Assembly: GCA_003480725.1 (NCBI GenBank)
Contig: QUJQ01000002.1
Location: forward strand, 440,754-504,753
Direction: 5' to 3'
From: Clostridiaceae bacterium AM27-36LB
Lineage (GTDB): Bacteria; Bacillota; Clostridia; Lachnospirales; Lachnospiraceae
DNA length: 64,000 bases
Shown: positions 30,799 through 44,889 of the stretch, piece after piece
Layout: every line of letters begins with the position of its first letter
Numbering within the stretch: position 1 is the stretch's first letter
The notes under the pieces: generated by a model
Seen by the model: the letters and a program-made list of their open reading frames with translations, nothing else
Told to the model about the DNA's origin: nothing
Databases searched by the model: none
Translations under genes and position numbers: made by a program

Positions 30799-31170
30799 CT
30801 ACAACCACTCCGGCACCTTTAGAATAAAAATAGGCTTAAAATATGCCGGACATATCAATCTCCAATCCTGCCAATGATACAGGATTACTCTGTCCCCAAA
30901 TTCATACTTGCCCGAAAACTTTTCATTGAATTCCTGTAAGGTATATCCAAGGTAAGCAACATTTCTTCCTGGTGTTTTGCCTTCTTCTGCAAGATCAATA
31001 TAAACATTTTCATACCTTGCATCTGAATACTCCGTGTCATTTGTCAGAACCCCAAATGCAAATGATGTTTTTACTACCAGAAAAAATATAATTGGAACTG
31101 CCACAATCAAAAAATCAATTATAAAAAGTGTTTTTAATCTTTTTCTGTATCTCTGCTCTTCTTTCCTCAT
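30799..31170 (-). CDS. Small membrane-anchored protein, paralog B
   Basis: 123 residues: a basic N-terminus (MRKEEQRYRKRLK), one helix (LFIIDFLIVAVPIIFFLVV) and an exported domain with YTLQEFNEKFSGKYEFGDRV, matching paralogs A and C at the TLxEFNEK...FGD core. The C-terminus is more diverged (CPAYFKPIFILKVPEWL). AGGAG precedes the ATG by seven bases. It converges on paralog A and follows paralog C on the same strand with a 90-base gap. Function unknown. Confidence 0.72.
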   Translation of the reverse strand: MRKEEQRYRKRLKTLFIIDFLIVAVPIIFFLVVKTSFAFGVLTNDTEYSDARYENVYIDLAEEGKTPGRNVAYLGYTLQEFNEKFSGKYEFGDRVILYHWQDWRLICPAYFKPIFILKVPEWL

Positions 31171-31260: not shown

Positions 31261-31632
31261 TCAATCTGTACTTACCGAAAGAATCGTTATCTCTGCTGGA
31301 AAAATTTCATAAGTAAACACTTCACACTCTGCGGTTATACTATCACCATAATCAAGGTTCAAGTCATACTTCTGGTTGATCTCATCCAATGTTTCTCCAC
31401 CAGGAGAATAATAATCATATTCACCACATTTGATTGAAAAAAATCTCTGTGAAACATTCGCATAATCTGATGATACAATTCCAGTCAGAGTTTCCAGGCG
31501 GGCATTATCATCTATCGCTGGTGTCTTATCGTGTCTGATATTCACTCTTGTCATGAATATCATAAATACCAGAATCATAATAATAAAAATTATCGTACAA
31601 ATCTGACTTGTGTATTTACGGATTATTTTCAT
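31261..31632 (-). CDS. Small membrane-anchored protein, paralog C
   Basis: 123 residues: an N-terminal helix (ICTIIFIIMILVFMIFM), then a domain with LETLTGIVSSDYANV, ETLDEINQKYDLNLDYGDSI and YEIFPAEITILSV. It is the closest relative of paralog A by eye. It begins 46 bases after the first Rpn gene and is probably on the same transcript, so it may be the downstream partner of that gene. Function unknown. Confidence 0.72.
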   Translation of the reverse strand: MKIIRKYTSQICTIIFIIMILVFMIFMTRVNIRHDKTPAIDDNARLETLTGIVSSDYANVSQRFFSIKCGEYDYYSPGGETLDEINQKYDLNLDYGDSITAECEVFTYEIFPAEITILSVSTD

Positions 31633-32701: not shown

Positions 32702-32853
32702 AATCCCCCTTCGGCGATTCTGGAAAATATATAATATTGTGCCCATATTTTCAAACTCTCCAGTTCGCCTTTATTCAGTTTTTTCTTTCTGAAAACTCGG
32801 CGAATCGCCGGATATGCTTACACATAAGAATCTCAGATGTTAGTATTATTCTA
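32702..32853 (-). ncRNA. Conserved structured 5' leader of Rpn copy 1
   Basis: Between the -10 and the ATG the transcript carries four complementary segments: 1, CGGCGA (32810-32805); 2, TCGCCG (32803-32798); 3, GGCGA with CTGGA (32769-32759); 4, TCCAG with TCGCC (32724-32713), directly before the AAGGGGG ribosome site. Pairings 1:2 plus 3:4, or 2:3 plus 1:4, exclude each other. A TTCAG/CTGAA hairpin lies between 2 and 3. The same segments occur in copy 2. Regulatory function is inferred from this architecture. Confidence 0.55.
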
Positions 32854-32876
32854 TGATACTTTTAGTTGTTTGTCAA
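32848..32876 (-). promoter_or_regulatory. Promoter of Rpn copy 1
   Basis: TTGACA (minus strand, 32871-32876) and TAGAAT (32848-32853) have a 17-base spacer, about 147 bases before the ATG. Conserved in copy 2, where the -10 is TAAAAT. Confidence 0.75.
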
Positions 32877-32899
32877 TTACTTATTTAAAATTATAATGA

Positions 32900-32941: not shown

Positions 32942-34159
32942 TCACTTTATTTTACAATGATATTCCTGATTCCATACTTTTCCTACTTTGTCGATCCTGA
33001 CCGCCACAATCTCCGGAACCGTCTCTGCTTCGGAGTATGTAAGTGTCAGTTCCTGCCGAAGTTCTGCAAGTTCTCCATCTACGTACATCGCAGGTGGAAA
33101 TGTGCTTCCTTTCAGCGAAAATGTTGTTGGATCTCCCTGAGATTTCAATTCACCCCAGCTCGCATTGATTGATAACAACTCTGTATCTTTTTCTAGTGTT
33201 TCTGGTTCTACATAGAGGATCACTTCTGTCGAAACCTTATTTTCTCCGTCATCATCCTGACTTTCTTTTTTCCTGCGCTCGACTTTTCCAATGTGGTAGG
33301 TGTCTTTTCCAGCAAAAAAGGATACATCAACATTTTCTGTTCCATCCACCGCCGGAACAGGAATTTCCACGATTGGTCCATCTTCTCCCATATCCGCCAC
33401 CAAAGAAATACCCAGAATCTTCAGTTCATATCCGATGTCTTCTGATGCCTTCACCGTTGCCTCAAAACTACTGCTTCCTTCAATACCTGACTGCTTCCAT
33501 TGAATAAATCCATCCTTTTTCACATCTTCCGGTGTCACCGGTTCTTTCATCGGTCGTCCCATCTGCCAGATATCGTCTGAAGTTCCCCACGCATGCAGCT
33601 TGAGAGTCTCATCATCCTCCCAGGTTCCCTGAAATACCCATGTCCGCCCATTGTGTGTTACCGGTGTTCCAATCTCTTTCAGGCTGTTATACTCCGGTAC
33701 TGATGTCATATGAATCGTTGCTGTCTGATCAAACAGATTCAACATATATTGATCCTGCGGAGTAATGCTGCGATACTCCTGTTCCACAGTCAGTTGTTTC
33801 TGTTCCTCATCATAGTTGCAATAACGGGAAAGTGATGTCAGTTTACTTTTCTCCTCATCCTGTACACTCAGGAACTGATCTGCCTGCTCCCAGTCATCTG
33901 CATCTGATGAATAATCTGCAACTATTTTCACATGAAGGAATCCATCCTTCCAGACAACATATTCCATCGTGGCACTTCCATATTCCGTATCCAGTTCCTG
34001 CATCGGATTTTTCGCTTCATATAGTTCCTCCTCTGTATTGCAGATTCCCAACGCCGGATGAAACTTGAAAGAAGTTTCTGACCTTGCACAGGCGGTCATT
34101 GCCAGTAATACTCCGACCAAGACCACACCTGCTGCTATCATTTTCCTGTTATCTGCCAT
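32942..34159 (-). CDS. Putative lipoprotein of unknown function, 405 residues
   Basis: From MADNRKMIAAGVVLVGVLLA the protein has a lipoprotein signal with the lipobox LLAMTAC, then a large acidic extracytoplasmic region with no recognised domain (TWEDDETLKLHAWGTSDDIW; a duplicated-looking beta-rich pattern). The chosen ATG follows GGAGGAGTCTT; a longer frame reaches back into the Rpn gene and is rejected. It starts 20 bases after Rpn copy 2, so the two are co-transcribed. Paralog C occupies the same position after Rpn copy 1. Confidence 0.82.
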   Translation of the reverse strand: MADNRKMIAAGVVLVGVLLAMTACARSETSFKFHPALGICNTEEELYEAKNPMQELDTEYGSATMEYVVWKDGFLHVKIVADYSSDADDWEQADQFLSVQDEEKSKLTSLSRYCNYDEEQKQLTVEQEYRSITPQDQYMLNLFDQTATIHMTSVPEYNSLKEIGTPVTHNGRTWVFQGTWEDDETLKLHAWGTSDDIWQMGRPMKEPVTPEDVKKDGFIQWKQSGIEGSSSFEATVKASEDIGYELKILGISLVADMGEDGPIVEIPVPAVDGTENVDVSFFAGKDTYHIGKVERRKKESQDDDGENKVSTEVILYVEPETLEKDTELLSINASWGELKSQGDPTTFSLKGSTFPPAMYVDGELAELRQELTLTYSEAETVPEIVAVRIDKVGKVWNQEYHCKIK

Positions 34160-35157: not shown

Positions 35158-35386
35158 AATCCCCCTTCGGCGATTCTGGAAAATATTTCATAACTGCCCC
35201 TGCTTTCAGCATATCGTGATTTTATCACTCAATAATTTCGCCGTTCGTCAAGAGAGAGCAAGTTCTCTCTGACTCACTTTCGCTCATTATATCCAGCTCG
35301 CCTTTATTCAGTTTTTTCCTTCTGAAAACTCGGCGAATCGCCGGATATGCTTATGCATAAGAATCTCAGATGTTAGTTTTATTTTA
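35158..35386 (-). ncRNA. Conserved structured 5' leader of Rpn copy 2
   Basis: Same segments as copy 1: palindromic 1:2 unit at 35343-35331, segment 3 (GGCGA, G, CTGGA) at 35302-35292, segment 4 (TCCAG, AA, TCGCC) at 35180-35169 beside the ribosome site. The extra loop sequence contains two small hairpins of its own (GTGAT/ATCAC and AGAGAGA/TCTCTCT). Stems kept while the loop length changes support an RNA structure. Together with 35387-35518 this makes a 361-base gene-free stretch. Confidence 0.55.
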
Positions 35387-35409
35387 TGATACTTTTAGTT
35401 TTTTGTCAA
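35381..35409 (-). promoter_or_regulatory. Promoter of Rpn copy 2
   Basis: TTGACA (minus strand, 35404-35409) and TAAAAT (35381-35386) have a 17-base spacer, about 220 bases before the ATG. Confidence 0.75.
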
Positions 35410-44744: not shown

Positions 44745-44776
44745 CCAAAAGAGGCACCACTCAATGCGGTGCCTCA
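44745..44776 (-). terminator. Expression-platform terminator of the TPP riboswitch
   Basis: GAGGCACC (44751-44758) pairs with GGTGCCTC (44768-44775), with four T following on the minus strand. It lies between the aptamer and the thiW ATG, so TPP binding would favour premature termination. Confidence 0.85.
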
Positions 44777-44786
44777 AAAAATCATA

Positions 44787-44875
44787 TCCACTTCCTACGT
44801 CGGCATTATCCGCATCAGGTTAAAGGGTCGAAGGTCTACCTTCCTCTCAGCCTGTCATACAAGCTCCCCTGCCTT
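44787..44875 (-). ncRNA. TPP riboswitch (THI element)
   Basis: On the minus strand the transcript shows GGGGAGC, GGCTGAGAGGAAG, GACCCTTTAACCTGATGCGG, ATAATGCCGACGTAGGAA: the conserved core of the thiamine pyrophosphate aptamer, including the CUGAGA and ACCUGAU-C/G-GAUAAUGCC regions. It lies upstream of thiW-thiM-thiE-HAD with a terminator following. Confidence 0.96.
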
Positions 44876-44889
44876 CAATTGTCCTACCT

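Follow-up and report, generated by a model that had tools for sequence, protein, structure and literature searches.

The stretch of 64,000 nucleotides analysed here (the window) carries two Rpn genes on its minus strand, 2.5 kb apart, whose products matched PF04754 (Rpn / Transposase_31) with 34.2 and 34.4 bits against a cut-off of 21. Between the two copies lies a lipoprotein-like gene (LAMTAC; 32942-34159, minus strand) without a Pfam match, and the neighborhood further includes two similar 123-aa membrane-anchored products with no Pfam or NCBIfam match (30799-31170 and 31261-31632, minus strand) and an ordinary TPP riboswitch (44775-44880, minus strand; 67 bits). Residues D63, E80 and Q82 of the window Rpn are conserved in at least 90% of 61 aligned sequences and, judged from the sequence, are the counterparts of the active-site residues D63, E82 and Q84 of RpnA (excerpts of PMC5350276), which make up a PD-(D/E)XK active site. 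An AlphaFold model of the protein reached a mean pLDDT of 87.3, with weak fold matches in a structure search. As E. coli Rpn proteins are described as toxins with an intragenically encoded antitoxin, and one plasmid-encoded Rpn as giving protection from certain phages (excerpts of PMC10327210), the window proteins may, by analogy, behave as toxins as well.

Table 1. Rpn genes and the elements of their leaders in the window, with sequences read on the minus strand.
Feature	Position	Strand	Sequence, basis or pairing
Rpn copy 1, 340 aa, PF04754	31679..32701	-	Pfam match
Start ATG of Rpn copy 1	32701	-	read from sequence
Segment 5, Shine-Dalgarno, copy 1	32705..32711	-	AAGGGGG; read from sequence
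Segment 4, copy 1 leader	32713..32727	-	TTTTCCAG + AATCGCC; putative partner 3, or ribosome site plus first codons
Segment 3, copy 1 leader	32759..32769	-	GGCGA 32769-32765 + CTGGA 32763-32759; putative partner 2 or 4
Inner hairpin, copy 1 leader	32774..32793	-	TTCAG 32793-32789 / CTGAA 32778-32774
Segment 2, copy 1 leader	32798..32803	-	TCGCCG; may form hairpin 1:2 or helix 2:3
Segment 1, copy 1 leader	32805..32810	-	CGGCGA
Predicted promoter of Rpn copy 1, sigma-70-type	32848..32876	-	TTGACA 32876-32871, 17-nt spacer, TAGAAT 32853-32848; 11/12 matches
Rpn copy 2, 325 aa, PF04754	34180..35157	-	Pfam match
Segment 5, Shine-Dalgarno, copy 2	35161..35167	-	AAGGGGG; read from sequence
Segment 4, copy 2 leader	35169..35180	-	TCCAG + TCGCC
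Segment 3, copy 2 leader	35292..35302	-	GGCGA + CTGGA
Segments 1 + 2, copy 2 leader	35331..35343	-	leader alignment with copy 1
Predicted promoter of Rpn copy 2	35381..35409	-	TTGACA, 17 nt, TAAAAT

The leader of Rpn copy 1 had been singled out in an original prediction for four mutually complementary segments behind a consensus promoter, and these are present as described (11 of 12 promoter positions match) and recur in the copy 2 leader from 35343 to 35169. The segment 4 core of copy 1 (TCCAG 32724-32720 plus TCGCC 32717-32713, minus strand) does sit immediately ahead of AAGGGGG, at 32713 versus 32711, and the TTCAG/CTGAA hairpin proposed between segments 2 and 3 is there too. Relative to copy 1, the copy 2 leader has a 77-column insert splitting segments 3 and 4; the inserted region (35181-35291, minus strand) holds hairpins of its own and a second GGCGAA-like stretch. 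Between segments 3 and 4 of copy 1 (32746, minus strand) lies an ATG that has a Shine-Dalgarno-like motif and is in frame with the gene; it would add 15 residues to the protein, and translation from it would pass through segment 4; the copy 2 leader also has a start between segments 3 and 4, but out of frame.

Both leaders are predicted to be more stable than their dinucleotide shuffles (z -2.96 for copy 1 and -3.07 for copy 2). Segment 4 is also complementary to the ribosome site (AATCGCC..GGGGGATT) and, through TTTTCC versus GGAAAA, to the first codons, and with those codons included the minimum-energy fold of both copies joins helix 2:3 to a segment 4 lying on the ribosome site and first codons. 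This closed state and the open one were calculated at -34.3 and -29.8 kcal/mol, respectively, in copy 1, and at -60.6 and -48.7 kcal/mol in copy 2. The competing 1:4 pair of the original prediction does appear when copy 1 is folded without its first codons, as part of a three-way junction with 2:3 and an open ribosome site, but is absent from the minimum once they are included; the competing layout in general is kept in related leaders, but there the recurrent pair is 4:5, so that the unit is one of five segments. When a chain score for 2:3 + 3:4 + 4:5 was compared with shuffles in which the spacer was randomized and the hairpin and ribosome site held fixed, copy 1 was matched by 1 of 100 shuffles and copy 2 by 29 of 100, so that copy 2 by itself proves little. 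The unpaired probability of the ribosome site stayed flat (0.48-0.54) in both copies under in silico truncation.

To compare these leaders with those of relatives, we searched by protein. Near matches of the window region were absent from the plasmids and phages searched, and relatives of the Rpn protein were absent from viral contigs, with one found in genome contigs. Rpn matches occurred in 36 of 392 genomes of that relative's order (E <= 1e-20) and, at E <= 1e-30, in 46 of 397 genomes from the family to which the closest genome by groEL belongs; from the names of protein matches we infer this family to be Lachnospiraceae. Leaders were gathered from 119 partly overlapping loci plus the two window copies; filtering dropped 4 of 123 for having no start, 27 of 121 as short or with a weak start and then 26 as redundant, which left 68 non-redundant leaders to set against 71 control leaders on 20 stretches taken from these same genomes.

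These leaders of Rpn relatives, which we call class A, repeat the layout in other sequence: segment 3 is rich in purines, segment 4 is anti-Shine-Dalgarno and segment 5 is the Shine-Dalgarno itself; because segment 4 is complementary to both 3 and 5, pairs 3:4 and 4:5 are mutually exclusive. The combined 3:4 + 4:5 score was matched by at most 1 of 100 shuffles in 28 of 68 Rpn leaders versus 4 of 71 controls (Fisher 3.5e-7; the other 40 Rpn leaders fail this threshold), and by none in 18 of 68 versus 1 of 71. The control set is conservative, since one of its stretches (L143) contains a leader of the second class described below, ahead of a YKD-type nuclease. For the full 2:3 + 3:4 + 4:5 chain, scored in 43 leaders with redundant ones kept and some with a misplaced start (L122-L125), 16 stood at 0 of 100 shuffles and 5, window copy 1 included, at 1 of 100; a clean case is L106, with GGTTCTGCCA, TGGCAGAGGG, AATCCTCTGC and ACAGGAGGAT. 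Many Rpn leaders also contain a small GGC..TTC..GCC hairpin: in its general form (GGY..TTC..RCC, last 200 nt) it is found in 19 of 68 versus 2 of 71 controls (Fisher 2.2e-5), and when read antisense in 3 of 68 and 2 of 71.

Among relatives with a full leader, the nearest is L002, whose protein is 54% identical to the window Rpn. In segment 2 it carries CGGTATATCACCG in place of the window's CGGCGATTCGCCG, with one compensatory pair changing from C-G to T-A. Its segments 3, 4 and 5 read GGCGGGG, CCCCGC and GGGGGC, its chain score was matched by 10 of 100 shuffles, and GC-rich hairpin units are repeated between its segment 3 and ribosome site. Tests of native against exchanged partners gave a modest signal for 3:4 with chimeras (p 0.003 in Rpn leaders and 0.10 in controls) and a weak one in a class-A partner swap from which 8 leaders had been left out by name (p 0.016, n 26; reversed 0.76; copy 1 alone 0.26). 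Taken by itself, the window leader, a class-A variant, is moderately supported. Four proteins of the set (P0026, P0051, P0061 and P0070) are shortened or fused Rpn variants, in two of which (P0061 and P0070) the leader is translated into the frame, and this suggests decay and recombination of the copies.

A second and stronger class (class B) emerged from a pattern for segments 3, 4 and 5 reading GCAGGAG, CTCCTGC and AGGAG, which had 64 matches in 45 of the 397 genomes versus 7 for the reversed pattern. We examined 50 of the 64 places and set 10 aside by eye as coding or chance; the remaining 40, in 29 genomes, have a common leader made up of segment 1, a variable small hairpin and segments 2, 3, 4 and 5. 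Segment 1 is AAAGCATA-like (AGCATA-like) and was found in 33 of the 40 leaders, in three of them far upstream; segment 2 is TTTCAGAAAATCTATGCTTTT, and segments 2 and 3 are strongly conserved. In 22 of the 40, a -10-like hexamer ends 5-8 nt ahead of segment 1. Class-B transcripts are predicted to begin with segment 1 itself.

Open frames of at least 80 aa follow 34 of the 40 class-B leaders; we assign 17 of them to a 'YKDxxFR' group, 7 to a PF12784/TIGR01784-like group and 5 to Rpn of the window type, with 5 others, among them a transglutaminase-like lipoprotein. Pfam matches are to PF12784 in 7 and PF04754 in 3 of the 34, and TIGR01784 is matched in 8. Profiles built from these same proteins, and thus partly circular, placed nuclease-like genes downstream at 31 of the 50 examined places. 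Between the YKD group and the profile of the window Rpn, hhalign gave an alignment (probability 92.9, E 3.6e-7) that brings the E-x-Q motif into register, and D59, E72 and Q74 are invariant in 40 of 40 of its database relatives; the PF12784-like group gave no alignment with that profile. A search with the L147 protein scored 7992 candidates, 6696 of them at E <= 0.001, and 118 of the 120 proteins listed lack a Pfam domain; this YKDxxFR group has an apparent D..ExQ active site. Class-B-like leaders were also seen ahead of a transglutaminase-like lipoprotein (L167) and of a coiled-coil frame (L200), where they are possibly remnants after loss of the nuclease gene, and at L157 a group II intron match (1856-1938) starts shortly after a broken YKD-type frame.

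To ask whether the segments of class B change together, we used 31 non-redundant leaders, with correction for kinship limited to near-duplicate removal. Native duplexes were better than duplexes with swapped partners for 2:3 (p 6.9e-7) and for 1:2 (p 4e-4); neither the unproposed 1:3 duplex (p 0.71) nor a control pairing segment 2 with segment 1 in reverse (p 0.25) was. With the invariant core of 2:3 removed the signal persisted (p 8e-5; reversed segment 2 against 3, p 0.49; 32 leaders). On alignment A6, 2:3 pairing stood at 76.6% versus 73.1% in shuffles (0 of 500), double-change cells at 32 versus 18.8 (0 of 500; a +1 slide gives 30) and the covariation score at 0.194 versus 0.156 (1 of 500; slid versions at most 0.128), such that three of five pair measures by column exceed the shuffles and the other two do not (257 and 400 of 500). 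The constancy of 3:4 and 4:5 is built into class B, because its members were picked by the 3-4-5 pattern, and RNAalifold on A6 yields 3:4 only, without covariation. The original prediction had made its case depend on homologous leaders keeping the complementary pairs; across the chain and swap tests the layout is kept while the sequences change.

Truncation in silico of 25 of the 31 class-B leaders (L162, L170, L179 and L193-L195 left out) revealed an ordered response. The mean unpaired probability of the Shine-Dalgarno, predicted at 0.05 in the full-length leaders versus about 0.5 in the window copies, stayed at 0.05 after removal of the first 12 nt, rose to 0.50 after removal of segments 1-2 and was 0.06 after removal of segments 1-3, with 6 of the 25 still below 0.1 in the second step. 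As modelled, this pattern reads as a relay in which 2 would restrain 3, 3 would restrain 4 and 4 would cover 5. Four class-A leaders were truncated in the same manner, and L114 responds; L106, L012 and L009 do not. Among six leaders folded, the closed state is the predicted minimum in five and within 1 kcal/mol of it in the sixth (L012); the open state is less stable than the closed one by 4.5 to 12 kcal/mol (4.5 to 9.4 in L106, L114, L012 and L153).

We then evaluated how far the leader spreads. The covariance model R1 recovers seven Rpn leaders from the protein set, including four that its own alignment already contained (L008, L057, L060 and L043 as L176), plus one in a control stretch. A class-level search of 391 genomes under strict filters gave 37 matches in 32 genomes, 34 of which were examined: all five in one genome (G111) precede YKD-type nucleases, and none of the other 29 precedes a nuclease by three profiles, with L200 leader-like. 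With G111 alone supplying matches before nucleases among the 34, the class-B leader seems confined to the family.

Rfam 15 had no match over the leader at the gathering threshold in the window, in 39 protein-found loci or in 20 class-B loci, in line with the original prediction, which knew of no named leader for this family, and lax thresholds added just weak matches under gathering scores. Elsewhere in the searched loci, Rfam recovered TPP, two cobalamin, one tRNA, one T-box and one group II intron. We likewise found no such leader in the portions of the open-licence literature searched, term look-ups in PMC11109978, PMC2864571 and PMC6429828 included.

Of the attenuator or riboswitch layout proposed originally, a switch-like leader before a nuclease-type gene is supported and the attenuator is not. 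For transcription attenuation, 0 of 40 class-B leaders have TTTTT in the 14 nt that follow segment 4, and a scan found no terminator-like site inside either window leader. For a leader peptide, a Shine-Dalgarno-like start with at least 6 codons is present in only 6 of 31 class-B leaders, and these are mutually unlike; starts within segment 2 open frames of varying length, with 7 of 31 lacking one, and each window copy has one Shine-Dalgarno-like start with at least 6 codons, between segments 3 and 4. A -1 frameshift (AAAAAAG after the start) was judged by eye, and no frame is kept, as the protein variants P0002 and P0004 run through the leader in frames of their own.

In erm-type translational attenuators, pairs 1:2/3:4 alternate with 2:3, and the same alternation is found here, without a conserved leader peptide and with five segments, so that 1:2/3:4 would leave the ribosome site free, not closed. 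Translational riboswitches are built on sequestor and anti-sequestor platforms, to which segments 3, 4 and 5 correspond as anti-sequestor, sequestor and Shine-Dalgarno; unlike them, the leader has no large conserved unpaired, aptamer-like core that we could see and no Rfam match. Type I toxins are small hydrophobic proteins, whereas the product here is a 340-aa PF04754 protein. The H. pylori aapA3 mRNA and the timP mRNA form mutually exclusive hairpins with the Shine-Dalgarno sequestered; antisense or small RNA antitoxins hold them in check, and activation of aapA3 is by 3' truncation (excerpts of PMC6733600 and PMC11228461). As in those mRNAs, access to the Shine-Dalgarno of a toxin-type gene would depend on which of the exclusive helices forms, and sequestration of the Shine-Dalgarno in the full-length leader is predicted across the 25 class-B leaders; the differences are the large product and the placement of the segments in a 5' leader, with the antitoxin RNA side covered here by a promoter scan. 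The leader may function like type I toxin mRNAs and translational riboswitch platforms, and we claim membership of neither. Rpn toxin-antitoxin genes with an intragenic RpnS belong to the same protein family as the window Rpn and are controlled by that internal antitoxin, with no leader RNA described in the excerpts of PMC10327210, where RpnL to RpnS ratios are said to depend on the mode of gene expression and additional regulation is suggested.

At the sequence level, a chain of complementary alternatives ending at the ribosome site recurs before many Rpn-type nuclease genes in this genome and more than two dozen related bacteria, which is wider than first noted, and we consider it probable that this chain makes the Rpn leaders a translational latch whose default state is closed. 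The resting fold, as predicted, would pair segment 2 with 3 and leave 4 to cover the Shine-Dalgarno; were segment 2 occupied, by segment 1 or another partner, 3 could capture 4, which would free the ribosome site. RNA from the predicted promoter would presumably take up both folds, with opening raising translation, and the purpose of such a latch is probably to hold down the level of a toxic nuclease as long as no signal calls for it.

Other explanations deserve weighing against this latch. A trans-acting antisense or small RNA, or an RNA-binding protein, might occupy segment 2 or 3 and make the self-pairing secondary, as the exposed hairpin with its frequent TTC loop and the control of type I toxin mRNAs by such partners (excerpts of PMC6733600) would fit; we regard this as unlikely, given that in the promoter scan the strongest plus-strand promoter-like site near the leader (32870-32897) is directed away from it. 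Rather doubtful is a static lid, in which hairpin 4:5 alone keeps translation constitutively low and segments 1, 2 and 3 have no switching role: the low energy of the closed fold and the insensitivity of the window ribosome sites to truncation speak for it, but in class B 2:3 and 1:2 covary and 1:3 does not, and the 3:4 + 4:5 chain is enriched over controls. An orphan metabolite or ion riboswitch, with a ligand at the hairpin and segments 1-2 setting the 3-4-5 platform, shares the layout and could account for the conservation of class-B segments 2 and 3; it is improbable in view of loops and linkers that vary in sequence, family-matched downstream genes that are of nuclease type rather than of a metabolic pathway, and the silence of Rfam over the leaders. 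Chance complementarity, from a GC-rich patch within an AT-rich leader, is very improbable: copy 2 does fall inside its shuffle range, but copy 1 was matched by 1 of 100 shuffles, and 18 of 68 relatives versus 1 of 71 controls by none. A DNA-level element, with repeats serving rpn duplication or recombination, is highly implausible even though the window copies are direct repeats taking in part of the leader and rpn arrays elsewhere apparently arose by tandem duplication (excerpts of PMC10327210), as the hairpin loop is strand-specific, the segments are tied in placement to the -10 box and ribosome site, and pairing is conserved in swap tests.

The translational latch bears on a question about Rpn proteins themselves, since how their nuclease activity is released is an open question for their discoverers (excerpts of PMC10327210). 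More speculatively, and with a low likelihood in our estimation, the leaders could amount to a family-wide, previously undescribed RNA relay guarding several PD-(D/E)XK toxin-like nuclease groups, in which the class-B latch could read the state of the 5' end of the mRNA or a partner at segment 2 and so free nuclease synthesis on attack, for instance by phage. The class-B motif marks a very large group of nuclease-like proteins, and a conserved leader governing translation would make the question of Rpn release accessible to testing.
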